DNA of 64,000 nucleotides from Phormidium tanganyikae FI6-MK23 (GTDB taxonomy: Bacteria; Cyanobacteriota; Cyanobacteriia; Leptolyngbyales; Leptolyngbyaceae), in assembly GCA_019359175.1 (NCBI GenBank), contig JAHHHU010000011.1, forward strand, positions 1 to 64,000. Reading direction: 5' to 3'. This document shows positions 10,151 to 50,423 of the stretch, in pieces (position 1 is the first letter of the stretch; the number at the start of each line of letters is the position of its first letter). Position numbers and translations under genes: made by a program. A model generated the notes under the pieces. That model saw nothing but the letters and a program-made list of their open reading frames with translations. It was not told the origin of the DNA and did not search any database.

Positions 10151-12361
10151 TTAAGCTGTTGCAGTCGCAGATCGATAGTAATAGCTATTTCCACTCTCGG
10201 CACAGTTCGCCACCACACCCACTAAATTGAGCCGACTCAGCATCCCAACCGCTTGTGTCACCTCATTTTTATCCACATGACCCATCCGACCCACGAGCAG
10301 CGCTCCATCACAGAACGATGCCGCCAACAGCGCATCGACAATTCCCAACACCGGAGGCGCATCCAAGATCACCAAATCGTAATGCTGCTCAAACACGGTC
10401 ATCAGATCGCGCATCCGCTTAGAACTGAGCAACTTGACTGAATCTGTTGGAGTTGGCCCAGCCGTCAGCACAGAAATCGGTAAGTCGCTGTAGGTACTCG
10501 CAGGCTGAATTGCTGCTTGGGTCAAAGCTCGATCGCTAGTCAACAACGTCGAAAGCCCATGATCGTTCGGCAACTGCAATTGATGATGCAATCCCGGACG
10601 ACGCAGATCCGCATCAATCAGCAACACCCGCTGATGCAATCGCGCCGCACTGATCGCGAGTCCCAGCGCCACGGTTGACTTTCCTTCACCCGCTAACGCG
10701 GAGGTCACAACTAGCGATCGCATCGGACTCCCATCGGTCATCAGTTGCAGATTCTTGTAAATCAGATCGAGCGATTCGCGGAACGGTGCCCAGTGCAGCA
10801 CTTGAAGCATCGAAGTATCCCCAGCGGCAGTCGATCGACCAAACGCGAAATTCGTCGGCATCAACTCGGACATCGGTAACTCTGGAACCATGCCGATCAG
10901 CGGAATTGATGCTTGCTTGGTCAAATCCTCAGATGTGCGAATCGATTTGTCTGCCGACTCGCGCAGGAATGCCGCCACACTGCCTATCATCGCGCCCGCT
11001 GCACCCCCGATCAGCAGATTTCGCAACCAGTTCGGGCCGACTTGGCGACCGAGTTTCGGCTGCTCGACCGTCTGCCAGTCAAATCCACCCCGCGCAATCT
11101 CAAGCCCCAAATCTTGCCGCGCTTTTTGCAGTTCATCCAGCGTGTCTCGATTTAGCTTCACCGCAGGCTGGAGGCGATTGTATTCCGACAGTAGGCTAGG
11201 AAAGCGCTGGAGTTGTGCCTGAAGTCGCTGTGCATCTGACGCTAACGCTTGATCCCGCGCCCGCGCTGAAAAGAATTCAACTTGAGCGGTGGTTAAATCG
11301 CTGGCGAATTTCAAATCGTTTTCGCCCAGTTGTCCAGTTGAGAACAGTCCTTCACCGGATTGCGCGATCACACCCGCATCTGCGCCCAAAACCCGCTGCG
11401 CTTCTTGCTGCAAGAGTCCGATCTGTCGCTGTCTTTGCTCTAACAACTGCTGCACAAACGGCGTTTTATCGGTAAAGCGAGTTTGCTGTTGCGCCAGTGC
11501 CACTTCGGTTTTCTGAATCTCAGCTAGTAGAGCTTGATACTGCTTCGATTGGCTCAGTTTCGCCGCGATCGTCACTTGCTCCGGCGATCGAGCTAACTGC
11601 TGCTGTAAAGCGTAGAATTTCGCCTGAGCACTTGCCAATTCGCCGCGATTCGTCTGCTGATCTTTCTGCAATTCTCGCAGCGAATCCACTAACGCCTTCG
11701 ACTGCACTTCGGGATCAACCAAATTCGTAGACTTGCGGAACCGCTCTAGATCCGCTTCGGCTTTATCGACTTTGGCTTGCACCTGTGGAATTTGCCCATC
11801 GATAAACGACAAGCCTTTGTTAAGACGGTTGCGCTGTTGCTCTAAGTTGTAGTCCTGATAGACCTTTTGCAGCGATTTCAGCACTTCGCGCGTTTTGATT
11901 CGGTCTTTGTCGATAAAGCTCATTTCAACGATATTCGTCGTCACCCGCTCGTTGCCGCGCAGTTCTTGAATCTGAGCAATGTTCAACCATTTTCTTAAGT
12001 GATCGACATCGATATCGCTGTATCGCGGCTTCAGATCGTCCACCGCCCGTTGCAGCAGTTGAGTACTCCGCATCAGATTGACTTGCGTCGCGGAGTCGCT
12101 CTCGACGTTGGGATCAGCGAACGAAGGACGGGCATCGTTGGGGGTGCGGCGTTCGCGATAGTTCGATTCGACCAGCATCTGCATCGTGCTGCGATACGTG
12201 GCAGGTAAAATTGCTGTCACCGCTGCGGCAAGGGCGATCGTTCCGGCAAGTGCGCCCAAAAACCAAACTTTTCGCCGCATCAACACGCCCAGAAGCTGCC
12301 CGTACCCTGGATCGGGTTCTGGTGCTGGTGGATTGAAGAGGGTGAGATTACCTTGCGCCAC
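10151..12361 (-). CDS. Wzc/GumC-like polysaccharide co-polymerase with tyrosine autokinase domain
   Basis: The product (736 aa) has an N-terminal Wzz chain-length domain with a membrane helix near residues 35-55, a long periplasmic coiled-coil rich in Q/E/K (about 190-440), a second membrane helix near 450-470 and a C-terminal BY-kinase domain. The kinase shows Walker A SALAGEGKSTVALGLA near residue 553, Walker A' LLIDADLRRPGL and Walker B VILDAPPVLG. The tail has only a short YYY cluster. Such proteins control chain length and export of capsule or exopolysaccharide through cycles of autophosphorylation. Its upstream neighbour is a GT4 enzyme on the same strand. Confidence 0.9.
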   Translation of the reverse strand: MAQGNLTLFNPPAPEPDPGYGQLLGVLMRRKVWFLGALAGTIALAAAVTAILPATYRSTMQMLVESNYRERRTPNDARPSFADPNVESDSATQVNLMRSTQLLQRAVDDLKPRYSDIDVDHLRKWLNIAQIQELRGNERVTTNIVEMSFIDKDRIKTREVLKSLQKVYQDYNLEQQRNRLNKGLSFIDGQIPQVQAKVDKAEADLERFRKSTNLVDPEVQSKALVDSLRELQKDQQTNRGELASAQAKFYALQQQLARSPEQVTIAAKLSQSKQYQALLAEIQKTEVALAQQQTRFTDKTPFVQQLLEQRQRQIGLLQQEAQRVLGADAGVIAQSGEGLFSTGQLGENDLKFASDLTTAQVEFFSARARDQALASDAQRLQAQLQRFPSLLSEYNRLQPAVKLNRDTLDELQKARQDLGLEIARGGFDWQTVEQPKLGRQVGPNWLRNLLIGGAAGAMIGSVAAFLRESADKSIRTSEDLTKQASIPLIGMVPELPMSELMPTNFAFGRSTAAGDTSMLQVLHWAPFRESLDLIYKNLQLMTDGSPMRSLVVTSALAGEGKSTVALGLAISAARLHQRVLLIDADLRRPGLHHQLQLPNDHGLSTLLTSDRALTQAAIQPASTYSDLPISVLTAGPTPTDSVKLLSSKRMRDLMTVFEQHYDLVILDAPPVLGIVDALLAASFCDGALLVGRMGHVDKNEVTQAVGMLSRLNLVGVVANCAESGNSYYYRSATATA

Positions 12362-12418
12362 GATCGTTACTCCGTTGATTCTAAATTTCAGGAAACTACA
12401 AATACCTTATGTTCTCAA

Positions 12419-13507
12419 TTACCCAGTGCCGCAAACTTGGTCGATCACCCCTTCGATCGATTGAAAGAACGCCTCTTCAGAAAAGCGGTTGACCGCGTGT
12501 TCCCGAATTTTTTGATAGTTCCACTCGATCGCTTTGGCTTTGAGCAATGCTCCGTGTAATGCGTGTGGCGTTTGGGAATTGAAAAAAACGCCCGTGATCC
12601 CTGGAATTTGCGTGTCGAGAACGCCGCCTTCGCCATAAGCGATCACTGGAGTTCCGCTTGCATTCGCCTCGACCGGAACTAGCCCGTAGTCTTCCAGTGC
12701 CATGACGATCACCGATCGAGATTTCGACATCAGTTGTTTTCGTTCGGCATCGCTGACGTGCCCTAGGAACTTAACGTTCCGCATTGCCCGCGCTTCTAGC
12801 GTATCGCGCTCTGGTCCGTCTCCCGTGACGATCAGATTCCAGCCGAGCCAGTTAAACGCCTCGACCACGACATCTAACCGTTTGTAGCTGACCAATCGCG
12901 CCGAAGCGAGATAAAAATCCTCTTTCTGATTCGAGAATGCGAATTGCTCACTATCGATCGGGCAATTAATCACCTGTGCGGGTTTATTGTAAATCTGCTG
13001 AATCCGCCGCGCGACCGTATGAGAGTTCGCAATATAAACATCCGGCTCTTGTGCGTAGGCAAGATCAGCTTTTCGCATTGCCCGAAAGACTTGCTCCAGC
13101 AATGGTAGAAAGCGCCGATAAGCAGTGTACTCGCGCAGATAGGTCTTGGTATCCCACAAAAATCGCGTGATGTTGTGGCAAAAACAAATGTGTTTGGCAT
13201 CCGGGCGCTTCTTCACTGCTTTCGCGAAGCTGGTCGTGCTGCTGATAATCAAGTCATAGTCTCGCAAATCTAGCGCTCGAAAGGCGGAGTAGTACAGCGG
13301 CGCTAGAAGCTTAAAGTAGCGCGATGCTTGAGGAATCTGCTGCAAATAAGTCGTGAAAACTTCTCGATCGCCAAAATCGATCGAAGCTTCTGGCTCATAC
13401 AGCGAGGTGAAAATATCTGCGTCAGGGTAGCGCTTACAGAGCATTTCAAACACTCGCTCCGCACCGCCCTTTTGAGTCAGATAGTCATGGACAAGGGCTA
13501 CTTTCAT
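12419..13507 (-). CDS. GT4-family glycosyltransferase (WbaZ/mannosyltransferase-like)
   Basis: The protein from the ATG at 13507 starts MKVALVHDYLTQKGGAERVFEML, the standard beginning of this GT4 subgroup; the open frame extends 39 codons further upstream but that extension does not look like family sequence. The donor domain has YLASARLVSYKRLDVVVEAF and ALEDYGLVPVEANASGTPVIAYGEGG. It should add a hexose during repeat-unit synthesis. It lies about 58 bases upstream of the tyrosine autokinase on the same strand. The donor sugar is not known. Confidence 0.87.
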   Translation of the reverse strand: MKVALVHDYLTQKGGAERVFEMLCKRYPDADIFTSLYEPEASIDFGDREVFTTYLQQIPQASRYFKLLAPLYYSAFRALDLRDYDLIISSTTSFAKAVKKRPDAKHICFCHNITRFLWDTKTYLREYTAYRRFLPLLEQVFRAMRKADLAYAQEPDVYIANSHTVARRIQQIYNKPAQVINCPIDSEQFAFSNQKEDFYLASARLVSYKRLDVVVEAFNWLGWNLIVTGDGPERDTLEARAMRNVKFLGHVSDAERKQLMSKSRSVIVMALEDYGLVPVEANASGTPVIAYGEGGVLDTQIPGITGVFFNSQTPHALHGALLKAKAIEWNYQKIREHAVNRFSEEAFFQSIEGVIDQVCGTG

Positions 13508-13788
13508 GACAAGACCGTTAAACAACAACAATCCGAACCGATCGAATTGTGTGAGCAAAATTGATCTGCACCCTCGATCTGGGAAGTAAAAAGAACGATC
13601 GAGAAAGTCAATACAATCGCACAAGCAAAGAAGCCCGAAATCGAGAACTCCATCAAAGCAAGATCTACTCTAGGGTCCAGAATAGAACGTTAACGAGGCA
13701 ACTGTAAATTTATCATGAAGTAGTAATCATCTTTCTACTGATAGAGATATGAAGCAAGAACGGGCCATATCGAAAGACAGGGGCAAGC

Positions 13789-13992
13789 CTAATCTTCTTC
13801 AAATTCATCCGCTCTCAAATCTCCAGGCTCGTTCAGCATTTCAGGCGTAACGGCGGGATTTTCGACGAGTTCTCGCGGATCGACTTGAGTTCCGCCGCTG
13901 TAAACTAAATCGTTCGGATCAACGATTTTTTGTTTCTTAGGTGGAGAGTCGTCGGTGGGTTTCGGTAAGCGTTCTGTAGGCTCTGTCATCAA
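13789..13992 (-). CDS. Small acidic conserved cyanobacterial protein
   Basis: The product is 67 residues, polar and acidic, rich in proline near the start (TERLPKPTDDSPPKKQK) with DPNDLVYSGGTQVDPRELVENP in the middle and an acidic tail (ADEFEED). There is no membrane segment or cysteine. It looks like the small disordered proteins conserved among cyanobacteria, but I cannot assign a function. It stands alone on the minus strand between the GT4 gene and the YgjP-like protease. Confidence 0.6.
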   Translation of the reverse strand: MMTEPTERLPKPTDDSPPKKQKIVDPNDLVYSGGTQVDPRELVENPAVTPEMLNEPGDLRADEFEED

Positions 13993-14058
13993 TCAAACCA
14001 GAATTTTTTAGAATCCTACAGGGTCCGATCGCTCAACTTCCCCTACCGTAAGAGTGAG

Positions 14059-14820
14059 TTAGTCTTTCAAACCATTCATTTCAAGCCAGCCGGGAACGTA
14101 ATGGCTGGATTTGCGAAGTTCCTTGTCGATCGCTTTATAGTTTGGATCTTTTTCTCCGACTAATCCCCAGAACCGATCCGAGTGATTCAGATGAATGGTG
14201 TGACAGAGTTCATGCACAAAGACATACCGCACCAGTTCGGGAGGAAGAAACAGTAATTTGAAATTCAGGCTGATATTGCATTGTTGAGAGCAACTTGCCC
14301 AAAGAGTTTTCTGCCCCCGAATCGAAGCTTTATGAAACGGCAGATTCAGTTCTTGACTCACCGACCACAGCCACGGGACAAGACGCTGATAGGCTTTGTG
14401 GGTTAGCCATTGTTGCAGCAAGGCGCGACAAAGTTCCTCATTATTTGTATTACCGCGCAAAATTAACCGCGATTTGCCTTTCTCAGTTAAGGTGACGCGC
14501 GAAAATCCGGTCGGCTGATATTCGATCTCCCAAAGTTGGTCGATCGCTCTTAGCGCTAATTGTGCGGGCAGGGCGTGAGAAGATTCGATCGACAATTGCT
14601 GTCGCTGTTCTTCAAGTCGCCCGATCGTGCGTTCGATCCAACTTTGCTTGGTATGCAAAATTTCCGGGATTCGGCTTTGGTCAAATCCGCGTGGAATAAT
14701 GACTTCTAAGCCGCCCTGCACGGTCATTCTCAAACTCACGTGCTTCGCCTTAATGCTTTCTCGAACTCGATACTGAGGGAGTTCCACAAGCTGACCACTA
14801 ATCAGTCTTGACTCAACCAT
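14059..14820 (-). CDS. YgjP-like (DUF45) zinc metallopeptidase
   Basis: The protein ends with the DUF45/YgjP-type metalloprotease domain: VRYVFVHELCHTIHLNHSDRFW carries the HExxH-type zinc site (HELCH) with a third histidine further on (HLNHS). The ATG at 14820 (MVESRLISG) was preferred to the longer frame, which opens with TTG at 14844. The family is widespread, often near restriction-modification genes, but its substrates are poorly known. It is followed 58 bases upstream by dnaB on the same strand, which may be chance. Confidence 0.85.
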   Translation of the reverse strand: MVESRLISGQLVELPQYRVRESIKAKHVSLRMTVQGGLEVIIPRGFDQSRIPEILHTKQSWIERTIGRLEEQRQQLSIESSHALPAQLALRAIDQLWEIEYQPTGFSRVTLTEKGKSRLILRGNTNNEELCRALLQQWLTHKAYQRLVPWLWSVSQELNLPFHKASIRGQKTLWASCSQQCNISLNFKLLFLPPELVRYVFVHELCHTIHLNHSDRFWGLVGEKDPNYKAIDKELRKSSHYVPGWLEMNGLKD

Positions 14821-45701: not shown

Positions 45702-46111
45702 GATAATGAATAGAGTTAAAGCATTCTTTTAGTGTGGTTGGAATCATATTAAATTCGTCTAACTTTCGTTAGATTCCGATTGTTTATCAGCGAAATAAGC
45801 AGATTTTTTTAATGTTAAAAAATTAAGCAAAAAGGTTTGACTTTTGGGTAGATCAGAGATTAGCCCCTCAGAGAGATAGCATTCAGTGATTTAATTTCTA
45901 AGCTGTCGTGTAAAGCAATTTCACCGCTGTGTCTTCATTGTTCAAACAAAAACTTGTTTAAAAGTTTCTTGTGAAAGGGCTGATTGCGCGAATCTGCTGC
46001 GATCAAGTTCTACAACATCGCCTAAAAATGTTAACCTTTGTAAAGCATTTGTATTGAAGCAGTATCTGTCGAAATTTGCCGATCGTTCTCGAATGTTTGT
46101 GGAGTTATCCC
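45702..46111. other. Intergenic region between the SDR gene and crtW
   Basis: About 410 bases, AT-rich, with no convincing gene. It must hold the divergent promoters. I see no box pair good enough to place. Confidence 0.5.
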
Positions 46112-46876
46112 GTGGTTTCTTTCCGTTCTGCCCCGATTCAGCCTGCTCACTCCTCTGGAATTTACATCGATCGTGGTGTATTCGTCGCGCTCTCGGTGAT
46201 TGGTGTATGGGCTGCGAGTTTGATAATTCTGCTAACCGCAGATGTCGATTCGATGCCGATGGTCGTAAAAATTATCGCGATCGCATTACAGACCTTTCTA
46301 TATACAGGATTATTTATTACGGCTCACGATGCAATGCACGGTGCTGTTTCTCCTAGCAATCGCAAACTAAATGATTTTATTGGAGCGCTTGCGCTTCGCG
46401 TTTATGCTTTATTTACGCTGAAGGAAATGATTCGGACACACTGGCAACACCACGAACATCCAGCTTCCGAGAGCGATCCCGATTTCCATAACGGTAAAAA
46501 CAAGAATTTCTTTTCCTGGTATTCCTACTTTATGGTGCGGTATTGGAGTTGGACGCGCATCATTTGTCTAGTCGCAATGTTTCATGTGATGCACCGTTTG
46601 TTCCATGTTTCTGAAGTAAATTTGACGTTGTTCTGGATGATTCCGTCGATCGCAAGTTCGGTTCAGCTATTCTTCTTTGGAACGTTCTTACCGCATCGTG
46701 AGCCTGCTGGCGGTTATCAGAACGAGAGCCGCGCTCAAAGTAGCAATTGGTCGCCGCTTTGGTCGTTTCTGACTTGCTATCACTTTGGTTATCATTCGGA
46801 ACATCATGAGCGTCCAGATCTCGCTTGGTGGCAGCTTCCCGAACTTCATCAACGCCGATTACAGCAAGAGCGTTAA
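46112..46876 (+). CDS. crtW: Beta-carotene ketolase CrtW
   Basis: The protein is 254 residues if started at GTG 46112 (VVSFRSAPIQPAHSS). GGAG at 46101-46104 lies 7 bases before it, which favours this start over the TTG at 46076. It has four membrane helices and the three histidine clusters of the ketolase/hydroxylase fold: FITAHDAMHG, THWQHHEHP and YHFGYHSEHHERP. CrtW adds 4-keto groups to beta-carotene to give echinenone and canthaxanthin. A methyltransferase follows after 30 bases, probably on the same transcript. Confidence 0.92.
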   Translation: MVSFRSAPIQPAHSSGIYIDRGVFVALSVIGVWAASLIILLTADVDSMPMVVKIIAIALQTFLYTGLFITAHDAMHGAVSPSNRKLNDFIGALALRVYALFTLKEMIRTHWQHHEHPASESDPDFHNGKNKNFFSWYSYFMVRYWSWTRIICLVAMFHVMHRLFHVSEVNLTLFWMIPSIASSVQLFFFGTFLPHREPAGGYQNESRAQSSNWSPLWSFLTCYHFGYHSEHHERPDLAWWQLPELHQRRLQQER

Positions 46877-46906
46877 GCTTAGGGTTGTCGAGCGTAGAGT
46901 TACACT

Positions 46907-47734
46907 ATGTCAAACTGGGTAGAAGTTCTCAACGAGTACTCAAAAAAGGATCTGGAGCAGCGGAAGGTTTGGTATTCTCCGGTAGTGGAGGCTTACGATC
47001 GAGCTAGACCCCGCTATCCAAAGGCGCTGATTCAACGAGTAGTTGAGGTTGCTCAGTTGTCACCAGGATCAAAGATTCTCGAAGTAGGATGTGGATCGGG
47101 TGTTGCGACCGTGGATTTTGCTCGATTGGGTTATGCGATCGACGCGGTTGAGCCTAATTTAGAATTCTGTCGGTTAGCAGAGCAGCATTGTGAACCCTAT
47201 CCGCAAGTGAAGGTGATTCCTCAAACGTTTGAAGAGTGGCAGGTTCAGTCTGGAAAGTTTCAGATTGTCTTAGCGGCAAATGCTTGGCACTGGATTTCAT
47301 CAGATATCAAGTATGTTAAAGCCTCTGAAGCATTGCAGAACAATGGGGCTTTGGTGCTGTTATGGAATATGTCGCTTGAGCCAAGTCATGAGGTGTATCA
47401 AGTGCTGAATGAGGTGTATCAACAAGTTGCACCGTCGATCGCGCCGAAGTACGAAGGCAAAGAGACTCAAGAAGAGATTTTGCAGGGTTTAGGAAAGTTA
47501 GTGGGTGATTCGGGATTGTTCGCGAGTCCAACTACGGAATCAATTTCCTGTGAGCGGGTTTATGAGGTCGATCGATATTTGGAGCTTCTCAGCAGTTATT
47601 CTCAGTACATTGCTTTAGATGCACCGACGCGAGAAGCTTTGTTTTCGGGATTGAAAACTACGATCGACCAACAATTTGAGGGGAAAATTCAGCTTTTTAA
47701 CCTTGCTGCATATCAGATCGCGAAGAAACTGTAG
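46907..47734 (+). CDS. Class I SAM-dependent methyltransferase
   Basis: The product (275 aa) has motif I ILEVGCGSGVATVDFA, the acidic residue in IDAVEPNLEF (motif II) and ANAWHWISS (a WHW feature of the Methyltransf_11/25 group near motif IV). It should methylate a small molecule. It begins 30 bases after crtW with the same orientation. A carotenoid-related role is possible but not shown. Confidence 0.85.
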   Translation: MSNWVEVLNEYSKKDLEQRKVWYSPVVEAYDRARPRYPKALIQRVVEVAQLSPGSKILEVGCGSGVATVDFARLGYAIDAVEPNLEFCRLAEQHCEPYPQVKVIPQTFEEWQVQSGKFQIVLAANAWHWISSDIKYVKASEALQNNGALVLLWNMSLEPSHEVYQVLNEVYQQVAPSIAPKYEGKETQEEILQGLGKLVGDSGLFASPTTESISCERVYEVDRYLELLSSYSQYIALDAPTREALFSGLKTTIDQQFEGKIQLFNLAAYQIAKKL

Positions 47735-47737
47735 AAG

Positions 47738-48076
47738 CTATCGACTAAGCTGATTCATCACAAACAGAAAGCAACCGAAATTTACTAATGCAACAATTAC
47801 TGCACCGATAATCACACCCTTCATCAATGCGAATCTTCGCTGTCGCCAAAAGACAATAATCAGCGGAATGATATAGAGCAGTTGAGTAACACCAATAAAG
47901 TAACTAACCGCAGATAACAAAGTGATCGCGCTGTAAGCCCAATTGTTTGTAGGAACGATGACCAGCGATTGAATGATTGAAGCGAGAAATAATACGATCG
48001 TGAATACTGCGATCGCTAACGAAATCGATAAAATGATTCCACGAATAATTCTTTGCCATTCATTAGATTGAGACAT
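47738..48076 (-). CDS. Small membrane protein, three or four helices, unknown function
   Basis: The product (112 aa) is almost entirely hydrophobic: helices at about 10-35, 40-60, 65-80 and 85-108, with basic residues at turns (WRQRRFALMKG). I recognise no family. It starts 13 bases after the radical SAM gene on the same strand, so it is co-transcribed with it. Its 3' end lies 3 bases from the end of the convergent methyltransferase. Confidence 0.65.
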   Translation of the reverse strand: MSQSNEWQRIIRGIILSISLAIAVFTIVLFLASIIQSLVIVPTNNWAYSAITLLSAVSYFIGVTQLLYIIPLIIVFWRQRRFALMKGVIIGAVIVALVNFGCFLFVMNQLSR

Positions 48077-48089
48077 ACGATCGGTGCTC

Positions 48090-49514
48090 CTAACTCACAA
48101 TTGCAGGTGGTTTAGACACTAAATGATGTCCTTCGCTGCCTTCGCGGTAGAACATATTGTAAGTATCAAAAGGAATGATTCGACCATCGGGATCAGCAAT
48201 GTGAATACAAGAGCGTTTTACCGATCGCACATCAAAGTTAAACGGATCAAGAAATTGCATAATGATCACTCGAAATACATTCTCGTAGGTAATTCCAGCC
48301 GGAACCGGAAGCATCGGTAAACAACAAAGAAGTTGCTTCAACGTTGCAGCCGAGGACACTGGAGAATGATTAGTCGAAAACAACTTAAAGATCTTTTGTT
48401 TTAGATCTTCGTTCTGTTCATAAAGGACTGAGTTTGGCATCACATCTAGAAATGCAGTCGGATCAAGTAAACCCGTTAGTGGAATCACTTGACCGTTTAC
48501 TTTCAGCGCGTATGCCATTGCTAAACAGTCAGGATGACACGGAACAGGAAGCAGATCTTTCGGTTGAAAGTGTGGACTCTGTTCGAGAATGGCGCGGCGA
48601 ACTTCGGTTAACGTATAGCGATCGCGTTTCGGCTCAAAGTTCTCTAATCGTCCTGCAACTTGGATCGGTTGAAATGTGACTCCACGAACGCATTTCTGCT
48701 GCAATCCGTATTCAATAATTCGACCAATTTCGTGATCGTTTAAGCCTTTTTTGATTGTTGCGACTAATGTTGTCGAAATTCCAAACTCATTGAGATTCGC
48801 GATCGCTTTTTCCCGCACGTTTCGCAAATCTACCCCGCGCAATTCTCGCAATGCTTTCTCTTCAAAGCTATCAAACTGCAAATACACCTCAATCCCAGGC
48901 ATATAGTCACTTAGCCGTTTGCAGAATTCCCGATCTTGAGCAATCTTGATCCCATTCGTATTGATCATTAAGTGCTTGATCGGTTTGCTTTTCGCAATGT
49001 TGAGAATCTCGAAAAACTCAGGATGAATCGTCGGTTCACCGCCGCTAATCTGCACAACATCTGGTTCGCCTTCATTTGCAACAACGTTATCTAACATTTG
49101 CTCGATCACAGCTAAACTGCGATCGCGTCTCGGTTGATTTGCGTGTGATAGTTCCTCAACTCCCGAATCGGCATAGCAAATCGGACAAGATAAATTACAG
49201 CGATCGCTAACTTCGATCAACGTCAAACAACTATGCTGCTCATGATCCGGGCACAGTCCGCAATCATAGGGACATCCTCGATCGATGGGAGTATTGAACC
49301 GACGCGGCATATCTCCAGGCTTGATAAACTCCTGACACTGTTTGTAATACTCAATGTCATCCGCGATCAGAACTTCTTCGCGCCCGTGAATCGTGCAGTG
49401 TTTGACGAGATAAACGCAATCGTTTTGAAAAATAATCTTCGCTTCAACCTTGTTAAGACACTTCGAGCAAACACTATTGGTTAAACCATAGAACAAATAA
49501 GGACGAGTCGGCAT
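48090..49514 (-). CDS. Radical SAM enzyme of the MJ0619 / tetraether-synthase (Tes) family
   Basis: The product (474 aa) carries the radical SAM motif C106xxxC110xxC113 (RCNLSCPICYADSG) and the rest of the barrel (QISGGEPTIHPEFFEIL). Before it lies a cysteine-rich N-terminal part: CSKC (16-19), C33, C40, C60, and the diagnostic GCPYDCGLCPDHEQHSC block (80-96). This block and order match the family of MJ0619, first called pterin methyltransferase and later shown to be the archaeal tetraether lipid synthase that joins lipid tails. A C-terminal RSCIHIADPDG may hold another cluster. The bacterial substrate is unknown; an Lgt-like gene lies upstream. Confidence 0.8.
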   Translation of the reverse strand: MPTRPYLFYGLTNSVCSKCLNKVEAKIIFQNDCVYLVKHCTIHGREEVLIADDIEYYKQCQEFIKPGDMPRRFNTPIDRGCPYDCGLCPDHEQHSCLTLIEVSDRCNLSCPICYADSGVEELSHANQPRRDRSLAVIEQMLDNVVANEGEPDVVQISGGEPTIHPEFFEILNIAKSKPIKHLMINTNGIKIAQDREFCKRLSDYMPGIEVYLQFDSFEEKALRELRGVDLRNVREKAIANLNEFGISTTLVATIKKGLNDHEIGRIIEYGLQQKCVRGVTFQPIQVAGRLENFEPKRDRYTLTEVRRAILEQSPHFQPKDLLPVPCHPDCLAMAYALKVNGQVIPLTGLLDPTAFLDVMPNSVLYEQNEDLKQKIFKLFSTNHSPVSSAATLKQLLCCLPMLPVPAGITYENVFRVIIMQFLDPFNFDVRSVKRSCIHIADPDGRIIPFDTYNMFYREGSEGHHLVSKPPAIVS

Positions 49515-49563
49515 TGATCAAACCTCTTGTTTAGTTTTGTTTGCTACGTTGCGATCAGATAGC

Positions 49564-49646
49564 TGCCCCTAAATTCCCCATTCTGGGGGACTTCAAGTCA
49601 AGACTTCAGTTCAAATTCCCCCAGAATGGGGAATTTGGGGGCTTCC
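49564..49646. mobile_element. MITE-like palindromic element between the Lgt-like and radical SAM genes
   Basis: Inverted arms GCCCCTAAATTCCCCATTCT and CAGAATGGGGAATTTGGGGG flank a short spacer with GACTTCAAGTCAAGACTTC. The core matches the copies at 24089 and 1184. It sits in the 156-base gap between two co-oriented genes and may reduce read-through. Confidence 0.65.
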
Positions 49647-49670
49647 GAGCCTTCAATCGAAGTAGAAAAG

Positions 49671-50423
49671 TCATACATTACTCACTTCTCGAAATCTAAA
49701 CAATTTTGAAATGCTGCGGGAATAGTAAATCAATGCTAAAACACACGCAAATTGAATCGCGCTTAAACCTAAAAACGGATGAAATTCTGGTTTAATCGAA
49801 TCAATCAACAACCGAAAGCTTAAATAGCTAATCATATAGAACTTAAACAAATCACCAGGCTGCATTGAATAGCGCGATCGCACTTTCAAAAACACAATCA
49901 GCAACAGTAAAAACCCAATCTCATAAAGCTGTGTTGGATGTCGCAGAATTCCATCACCAAAATCAACGCCCCAAGGCAAATTCGTTGCGACCCCATAAGT
50001 TCGATCTCTTAATCCCGTCAAAAAACAGCCGATTCTCCCGATCGCCATTCCCAAAATCAGCGGATACACAAACGCATCCCCGGTCGATTGTTTCACACCG
50101 ATGATTTTCTTGACCAGTTCAACCCCGATCAACGCCCCCAAAAGCGCCCCAACCACCGTTTTGCCTTGCAGCAACATCAGCAAAAATAGCTCTCGCTGCT
50201 GCCACCAAAGATCAATGTGTTGCACCATCACCAGCACTTTCGCACCGATCAACGCCCCAACCATTCCCCCCACCACGATCGAGCTTCTTTGAGTCGGCTT
50301 AATCACATCGCGTCGAAAATTCCGCAACGATAACCGCAACGCCACACCATACGCGATCGCTTCAAAAAAGATGTGAGGATGAATTTTGAACGCACCCACA
50401 CCCAGATAAACGGGAAAATTCAC
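49671..50423 (-). CDS. Lgt-like membrane protein (prolipoprotein diacylglyceryl transferase paralog)
   Basis: The product (250 aa) has seven hydrophobic segments and the Lgt-family blocks HPHIFFEAIAYG, IGRIGCFLTGLRDRTYG and GILRHPTQLYEIGFL. In true Lgt the second block reads GRxGNFxNxE(L/R)xG; here asparagine is cysteine and the glutamate is arginine/aspartate, so key residues of phosphatidylglycerol-to-lipoprotein transfer are absent. The HPTQLYE loop is kept. It may bind a similar lipid but do another job. It lies upstream of the Tes-like radical SAM gene on the same strand. Confidence 0.75.
   Translation of the reverse strand: MNFPVYLGVGAFKIHPHIFFEAIAYGVALRLSLRNFRRDVIKPTQRSSIVVGGMVGALIGAKVLVMVQHIDLWWQQRELFLLMLLQGKTVVGALLGALIGVELVKKIIGVKQSTGDAFVYPLILGMAIGRIGCFLTGLRDRTYGVATNLPWGVDFGDGILRHPTQLYEIGFLLLLIVFLKVRSRYSMQPGDLFKFYMISYLSFRLLIDSIKPEFHPFLGLSAIQFACVLALIYYSRSISKLFRFREVSNV

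Follow-up and report, generated by a model that had tools for sequence, protein, structure and literature searches.

A recurrent bacterial cassette of an Lgt-like protein, a radical SAM protein with the tetraether-synthase fold and a small membrane protein: a possible lipid-modifying set

A 64,000-nucleotide stretch of Phormidium tanganyikae FI6-MK23 (contig JAHHHU010000011.1, positions 1 to 64,000; hereafter the window) contains three genes for, respectively, a paralog of prolipoprotein diacylglyceryl transferase (Lgt), a radical S-adenosylmethionine (rSAM) protein with the fold of tetraether synthase (Tes), and a small membrane protein whose last helix ends in a conserved cysteine. The cassette formed by the Lgt-like protein, the Tes-fold rSAM protein and one or more tiny membrane genes is real; it is conserved but patchy in distribution, and extends beyond cyanobacteria. 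We propose that it is a three-part lipid-modifying system, in which the Lgt-like protein would load the cysteine of the small protein and the rSAM protein would alter the acyl tails, and give this reading as a whole a probability of about 0.4.

With this cassette, one large bacterial Tes-like clade gains two specific partner genes and one conserved cysteine to focus on; what was an "unknown radical SAM lipid enzyme" thereby becomes a three-gene system open to experiment, for which the site of the product can be predicted. We found no published description of the rSAM and Lgt-like pair in the literature searched, which left out most subscription journals and preprints; if true, the proposed lipidation pathway is described in none of the papers found.

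Recurrence of the gene set

An earlier reading of the window from its letters alone (the original prediction) had described three genes at 47738-50423, a 13-base gap between the rSAM gene and the small gene, and a series of sequence motifs, and all of these were as claimed, on the minus strand; the gap between the Lgt-like and rSAM genes is 156 bases. Recurrence of the Tes-like and Lgt-like pair in other genomes had been set beforehand as a test of that prediction, and the pair proved strongly recurrent. One panel of 386 genomes of the phylum was searched for both proteins. At an E threshold of 1e-20, 11 of them matched the rSAM query, one of which, G050, was dropped because it holds only proteins of about 30% identity, placed by the tree outside the clade of the window protein (the window clade, see below); the other 10 genomes each contain a window-clade protein of at least 64% identity. 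Nine genomes matched the Lgt-like profile, and all nine lie within the 10 rSAM genomes (hypergeometric test, 2e-17, which ignores kinship; the nine genomes span eight genera). The two genes are on separate contigs in G030, where the end of the Lgt-like gene adjoins the rSAM gene at a contig edge.

The rSAM protein has at least 556 relatives in named genomes, and the locus counts given here cover the best, and thus closest, 80. A same-strand Lgt-like gene was found by tblastn at 77 of these 80 loci, at 67 of them directly upstream within 300 nt, and 76 of the 77 genes carry the motif GRxGC. The set had been thought cyanobacterial, which did not hold: assigned by record title, the 80 loci fall into eight phyla (Cyanobacteriota with Melainabacteria, Bacillota, Bacteroidota, Planctomycetota, Verrucomicrobiota, Acidobacteriota, Pseudomonadota and Omnitrophota), the named carriers being mostly Paenibacillus, Bacteroidota and cyanobacteria.

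The small membrane protein, as had been suggested, is part of the set. Under a strict rule, which demands that a hydrophobic stretch of 14 residues end at a cysteine in the final 22 residues and applies the same size rule to controls, a gene for such a transmembrane-cysteine protein adjoins the pair in 72 of the 80 loci (71 if the doubtful upstream small open reading frame (ORF) of L080 is excluded), as compared with 35 of 945 control windows. At L071 and L084, which have a downstream small ORF as well, the upstream one is apparently spurious. The other recurrent neighbour families listed in a clustering of the 80 loci are on mixed strands or confined to one lineage.

The phylogenies of the two larger proteins were compared over 33 shared loci. 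They have 10 of 30 splits in common, against a null mean of 0.17 and a null maximum of 3, and their Mantel correlation (r = 0.80) was reached in none of 999 permutations. Among 59 comparison loci, with flanks of about 1.5 kb or less, the Lgt-like profile matched only three. Two of them, L177 and L178, belong to the window clade, and the third, L175, is a tree neighbour of that clade at a support of 93, with a small membrane protein ending in LTVVLCF encoded just upstream. Unlike the cassette, the Tes loci and the loci of the related family TrsS had no Lgt-like protein in the flanks covered.

The radical SAM and Lgt-like proteins

Profile searches placed the rSAM protein in broad families but not in the narrow ones. 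It matched the Pfam families Zn_ribbon_HMPTM (57.7 bits, cut-off 27) and Radical_SAM (85.3 bits, cut-off 29.5), whereas its best NCBIfam match, TrsS (NF045646), covered the full length at 326.8 bits, under the cut-off of 490, and Tes (NF045702) scored 291.5 against a cut-off of 450. Its closest relative in the PDB is the M. jannaschii Tes, GDGT-MAS (MJ0619; 7tol; E 8e-67). The predicted structure of the window protein, with a predicted local distance difference test score (pLDDT) of 81.5 and residues 350-407 below 50, aligned to 7tol with template modelling (TM) scores of 0.80/0.77, and to 7tom with Z 47.5 over 421 residues and a root mean square deviation (rmsd) of 2.2 Å; the next family reached a Z of only about 20. 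Assignment to Tes by the original prediction was therefore borne out for the end-to-end architecture, but not for membership of the family, given the score below the cut-off, the separate clade and the loss of cysteine columns.

The motifs shared with Tes lie along the N-terminal part of the protein. The rubredoxin-type motif C16/C19/C40/H43 has the same spacing as C9X2C12X20C33X2H36 of GDGT-MAS (PMC9433317), and is followed by the N-terminal cluster motif, GCPYDCGLCPDHEQHSC, and by the CX3CX2C motif, CNLSCPIC; the N-terminal metal motifs, together with C96, are also common to TrsS. In the window clade, C16, C19 and C40 are cysteine in 33 of 33 rows and H43 is nearly invariant; C81, C85 and C88 are likewise cysteine in 33 of 33, and H91 is invariant in the 53 A3 rows.

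The C-terminal part departs from this pattern. The columns of M. jannaschii C338, C455 and C470, which we infer to be cluster ligands, are cysteine in every Tes and every TrsS row compared (14 of each), whereas the window clade has mainly serine and aspartate at the last two, and carries cysteines of its own at C326, C397, C398 and C436 (33 of 33 rows each). The column of Tes Y459 is isoleucine in 32 of 33 window-clade rows.

In a tree of 74 rows (quick search, midpoint root, support from the approximate likelihood ratio test SH-aLRT), the window clade comprises 33 rows at 99 and is separate from both Tes and TrsS. The rows were 32 of the 51 window-clade A3 rows, 13 of 26 bacterial Tes, 14 of 17 TrsS, the M. 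jannaschii Tes and others; 19 window-clade A3 rows, 13 Tes loci and three TrsS loci were left out for size, and L178, initially labelled "other", fell in the window clade to make its thirty-third row. The TrsS rows form their own clade at 100, and a further clade, at 99, unites the 13 bacterial Tes, the M. jannaschii Tes and four Acidobacteria rows. These four (L153-L156) represent a longer Tes-like protein, frequent in Acidobacteria genomes, that scores about 310-350 bits, under the Tes cut-off; the four rows nest among bacterial Tes, but do not keep the cysteine columns of the N-terminal cluster, with histidine in 4/4, serine in 4/4 and a mixed first column.

Since the C-terminal cysteine columns differ, the chemistry of the window protein may differ from that of Tes, and "tetraether synthase" would be an over-call for a protein of this separate clade. 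For the same reasons, the separate clade and the loss of two of the three C-terminal cysteine columns, joining of lipid tails is one option among several. We think that the substrate of the protein is probably an acyl chain or some other hydrophobic chain, whereas tail-to-tail coupling as in Tes seems unlikely. The cassette also warns against taking a Tes-like gene as evidence that membrane-spanning lipids are made, a point of importance when the organisms behind geological lipid markers are traced. According to the available text of the discoverers' paper, Tes homologues occur in bacteria not known for biphytanyl chains (PMC9433317), and PMC11868695 describes the activity proposed for bacterial homologues as unconfirmed. 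The bacterial membrane-spanning lipid synthase Mss (PMC11868695) keeps the Tes catalytic architecture, as stated in the accessible part of PMC13274423.

An operon at L201 (G734:C39:274000-284000, genome from the phylum of Shimazuella, G389) contains two tandem Tes-like rSAM genes together with genes for two short-chain dehydrogenases/reductases (SDRs), an acyl carrier protein, a nitroreductase, an alpha/beta hydrolase, a fusion of class V aminotransferase and rhodanese, and an ICMT-like protein. Its rSAM rows lie farther out, but on the same side of the rSAM tree as the window clade, and relatives of both genes occur in G050, of the cyanobacterial phylum. Because this operon has an acyl carrier protein, SDRs and a hydrolase, it favours acyl substrates for the window-clade half of the superfamily.

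The Lgt-like protein matched Pfam LGT (PF01790) at 89.2 bits (cut-off 24.9), but fell under every listed NCBIfam Lgt cut-off (TIGR00544, 41.7 against 118.9 bits; NF000778, 67 against 334 bits). Its model (pLDDT 92) had E. coli Lgt, 5azb, as the sole Foldseek match at E ≤ 0.001 (E 4e-7, TM scores 0.57/0.51), and aligned to it with Z 13.8 and an rmsd of 5.3 over 237 residues, the next match having a Z of 6.9. Structure prediction, which had been suggested as a check, thus matched each of the two proteins to the expected enzyme.

The Lgt-like protein is altered in the way first described: RHPTQLYE is kept, and GRIGCFLTGL stands where Lgt has GRxGNFxNxE, with both the asparagine and the glutamate gone. 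Along with the Lgt fold (5azb, 5azc), residues G142, R143, G145, E202, Y235 and R239 of the E. coli enzyme are kept in 38 of 38 Lgt-like rows, and four of these (R143, E202, Y235, R239) sit in the phosphatidylglycerol (PG) pocket of Lgt, according to the part of PMC4728403 available to us. The surroundings of these residues are changed. Y26 is replaced by histidine and Y30 by glutamate in all 37 rows with a residue there, N146 is cysteine (C133) in 38 of 38, H103 is valine or methionine and E151 is lost, whereas E102, K105, D116 and D157 are new invariants. As judged from these alignments, the PG pocket looks kept and the chemistry around it changed.

The loss of the asparagine carries little weight as a sign of changed function. 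Position 146 is a cysteine in further Lgt-family proteins from Mucilaginibacter and Acidobacteria genomes too, among them all three LGT matches of one complete Mucilaginibacter genome, and a high-scoring Lgt of a Paenibacillus (L103) has tyrosine at position 103; the residue exchanges alone consequently do not show that Lgt activity is lost, and the N-to-C change is weakened as a sole mark of new function. The source genome has a second, high-scoring Lgt (278 bits) on a different contig, and a further Lgt-family gene was present in 15 of 15 genomes checked.

The small membrane protein and the proposed mechanism

The most telling feature of the small protein, and one absent from the original prediction, is the conserved cysteine with which its last helix ends. 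Neither Pfam (at E 0.1) nor NCBIfam (at E 0.01) gave a match to the protein, and among 12 A5 small-protein rows no Pfam family matched more than one (best E 0.0086). Small proteins of the cassettes are mostly shorter than 150 residues, with few helices. Those of cyanobacteria and Bacillota are plain homologues; those of Bacteroidota align with one another and have an invariant TC (11 rows).

In a set of 88 loci, made up of the best 80 and eight from the cyanobacterial phylum, a small hydrophobic ORF starts directly after the rSAM gene in 67. A cysteine is found within the last 26 residues of 65 of these 67, as compared with 29 of 70 other small hydrophobic ORFs (Fisher test, 1e-13; tested ORFs of 55-170 aa, control ORFs of 80-170 aa). 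In the 65 tails, position -2 from the cysteine is A, G, S or T in 61 and position -1 is mostly small (48), and there is a mean of 2.4 K/R at -24 to -13 versus 0.26 in the tail, which is short and nearly uncharged. The order is thus basic residues, hydrophobic helix, cysteine and short tail. Basic residues mark the inner side of a membrane helix (the positive-inside rule), so that the charge bias would place the cysteine at the outer face, where the cysteine of a lipobox would be. With its basic start, hydrophobic run, small residues and cysteine, the last helix looks like a lipoprotein signal moved to the C-terminus.

The small gene also changes place and number. It lies upstream of the Lgt-like gene at seven Paenibacillus/Saccharibacillus loci, and occurs in two or three copies at several loci and in five or more at one locus of Holophagae. 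Its shifting position and tandem copies fit a substrate or tag. At L062 (Holophagae), the region downstream of the rSAM gene (about 11958-14236) encodes a series of some five distinct small membrane proteins, all of which have a hydrophobic helix and then a cysteine near the end.

Large relatives of the small protein elsewhere in the genome were considered and rejected: eight of nine genomes matched at the cassette, and beyond that there were one extra copy and three weak matches (E 8e-4 to 0.09). The extra copy (L200, 4355-4725 of G129:C7) lies away from the cassette and is seemingly broken into two frames. A second search, of five Bacteroidota genomes, found cassette copies in two, together with two weak matches, and none in the other three.

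In its established role, Lgt attaches a diacylglyceryl group to the cysteine found at a helix's outer end. The best case for an acceptor role of the small protein is that Lgt modifies such cysteines and that the small proteins, very variable in other respects, keep one, sometimes in tandem copies; the chance that its cysteine is lipidated by the Lgt-like enzyme is, in our judgement, just short of even. In the proposed pathway, the Lgt-like protein, like Lgt itself, would bind PG in the outer leaflet and then transfer the diacylglyceryl (or an acyl) group of this lipid onto the last-helix cysteine. The cytosolic rSAM protein would draw an acyl tail into its Tes-like pocket and abstract a hydrogen from it by means of the 5'-deoxyadenosyl radical, leading to a bond or other change, either in the lipid before loading or in the lipid already on the small protein. 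The outcome would be a small protein whose anchor is an altered lipid, perhaps a coupled one. The boldest version, in which the C-terminal cysteine of the tiny protein receives a glycerolipid with tails joined or altered by a Tes-fold rSAM protein with a re-wired C-terminal cluster, to give a radical-modified and possibly membrane-spanning anchor, is improbable as a complete package.

A partial precedent comes from the MYXO-CTERM (myxosortase) tags, which, in the available text of PMC11980579, likewise consist of a C-terminal hydrophobic helix with an invariant cysteine, and whose cysteine the authors predict to be lipidated by an Lgt-like enzyme. The order differs, as far as that text goes: MYXO-CTERM has cysteine, helix and basic cytosolic tail, whereas the small protein is reversed, with the basic residues first and the cysteine last.

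Several points weigh against the three-part cassette as we read it, and the strongest against the small protein as acceptor are the lost Lgt residues and the extra conserved residues of the small protein. Y26, H103, N146 and E151 are all replaced in the Lgt-like rows, and each is needed in E. coli Lgt according to what is accessible of PMC4728403 and PMC8689077, so that diacylglyceryl transfer by the Lgt-like protein is not assured. In the small protein, Q65, Y68, P71, L97, N99 and C102 are invariant in 12 cyanobacterial and Bacillota rows, and those inside its helices, Q65, Y68, P71 and N99, are as compatible with a working subunit as with a substrate. The rSAM protein may lack coupling of the Tes type: of the 33 window-clade rows, 19 have C at the C338 column, 25 have S at the C455 column and 28 have D at the C470 column, and only 22 have Met at the position of the labile Met ligand of GDGT-MAS. 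A cytosolic rSAM protein and an outward acceptor cysteine would be on opposite sides of the membrane, which leaves the order of steps ambiguous, and the chemistry as a whole is deduced from sequences and models. The association also has gaps. In the profile search of the 386 genomes, G004 had an rSAM gene without an Lgt-like match; among the 80 loci, three have no same-strand Lgt-like gene in the stretch examined, the Lgt-like gene of L066 is broken by a stop and that of L046 is without the GRxGC motif, and eight, or nine counting the doubtful L080, have no transmembrane-cysteine gene beside the pair. Members beyond the closest 80 may be less regular.

The best-surviving alternative, although an unlikely one, is the view of the original prediction, that the bulk membrane lipid is changed. 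The rSAM protein would couple fatty-acyl tails into membrane-spanning or macrocyclic phospholipids, the Lgt-like protein would make or remodel the glycerolipid, and the small protein would be an accessory subunit. The Tes architecture over the whole length and the retained PG pocket agree with this, Tes binds ordinary bacterial phospholipids (PMC9433317), and bacterial Tes homologues are suspected makers of membrane-spanning lipids in the text available from PMC8941075 and PMC11868695. However, the separate clade and the two lost cysteine columns argue against it, as does, less clearly, the isoleucine at the Y459 column, given that GDGT-MAS with Y459 changes was still active. It also leaves the near-universal cysteine and the tandem copies of the small gene unexplained. 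The carriers, largely Paenibacillus, Bacteroidota and cyanobacteria, are a further point against it; to our knowledge, they are ordinary mesophiles not known for membrane-spanning lipids.

Tandem divergent copies of a small gene next to an enzyme are typical of modified substrates, and would also fit a membrane-peptide maturase. Here the C-terminal helix of the small protein would enter the Tes-like tunnel of the rSAM protein, to receive a thioether or C-C crosslink near its nearly universal cysteine, and the Lgt-like protein would release, lipidate or traffic the product. The peptide maturases SuiB and SkfB are indeed among the next structural matches of the rSAM protein, but with Z about 19 over 250 residues, versus 47.5 over 421 for the lipid-binding GDGT-MAS. 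Pfam found no peptide-maturase C-terminal domain in the rSAM protein, and the charge bias puts the cysteine outside, away from a cytosolic enzyme; we regard this explanation as improbable.

Still less probable is a small protein that serves as working partner of the Lgt-like protein, its cysteine forming with C133 and H17/E21 a thiol relay or acyl-enzyme site for acyl or glycerolipid transfer to another target, with the rSAM protein preparing the lipid: the new invariant set H17, E21 and C133 beside the kept R130, Y200 and R204, and the conserved intramembrane Q, Y, N and C of the small protein, agree with it, but tandem, divergent copies fit a subunit less well, and the same genomes encode, at other places, Lgt-family proteins that likewise have a cysteine at the position of C133.

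Locus layout and neighbouring features

The cassette genes and the residues discussed above are located in the window as follows.

Table 1. Positions of the cassette genes and of selected motifs and codons in the window
Feature	Position	Strand	Details
Lgt-like integral membrane protein, prolipoprotein diacylglyceryl transferase paralog	49671..50423	minus	250 aa, GTG start
Radical SAM protein, tetraether-synthase fold	48090..49514	minus	474 aa
Small membrane protein, motifs IGxxQxxYxxP and LxNxxC	47738..48076	minus	112 aa
Lgt-like C133 codon	50025..50027	minus	position of E. coli Lgt N146 in HMMER alignment to 5azb
rSAM rubredoxin-type metal motif C16-X2-C19-X20-C40-X2-H43	49386..49469	minus	motif reading, alignment
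rSAM N-terminal auxiliary cluster motif C81, C85, C88, H91	49242..49274	minus	alignment
rSAM CX3CX2C (C106, C110, C113)	49176..49199	minus	motif reading, alignment
rSAM region with clade-specific C-terminal cysteines C326, C397, C398, C436	48207..48539	minus	alignment
Small-protein C102 codon, conserved Cys at outer end of last helix, proposed lipid acceptor	47771..47773	minus	

The methyltransferase-like and carotenoid ketolase genes next to the cassette (46076-47734, plus strand) were rejected as partners, as they lie on the opposite strand and are not among the recurrent neighbour families listed in the clustering of the 80 loci. The ketolase, CrtW (46076-46876, plus strand), is two genes downstream of the cassette and scored 370.7 bits (NCBIfam cut-off 350).

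An inverted repeat of 29 nt (49565-49642; arms at 49565-49593 and 49614-49642, 93% complementary) lies between the Lgt-like and rSAM genes, and its 23-nt core has a single exact match in the genome. The same two genes are only 3 nt apart in the close relative L017, and for this reason the repeat looks like a lineage-specific insertion or hairpin.

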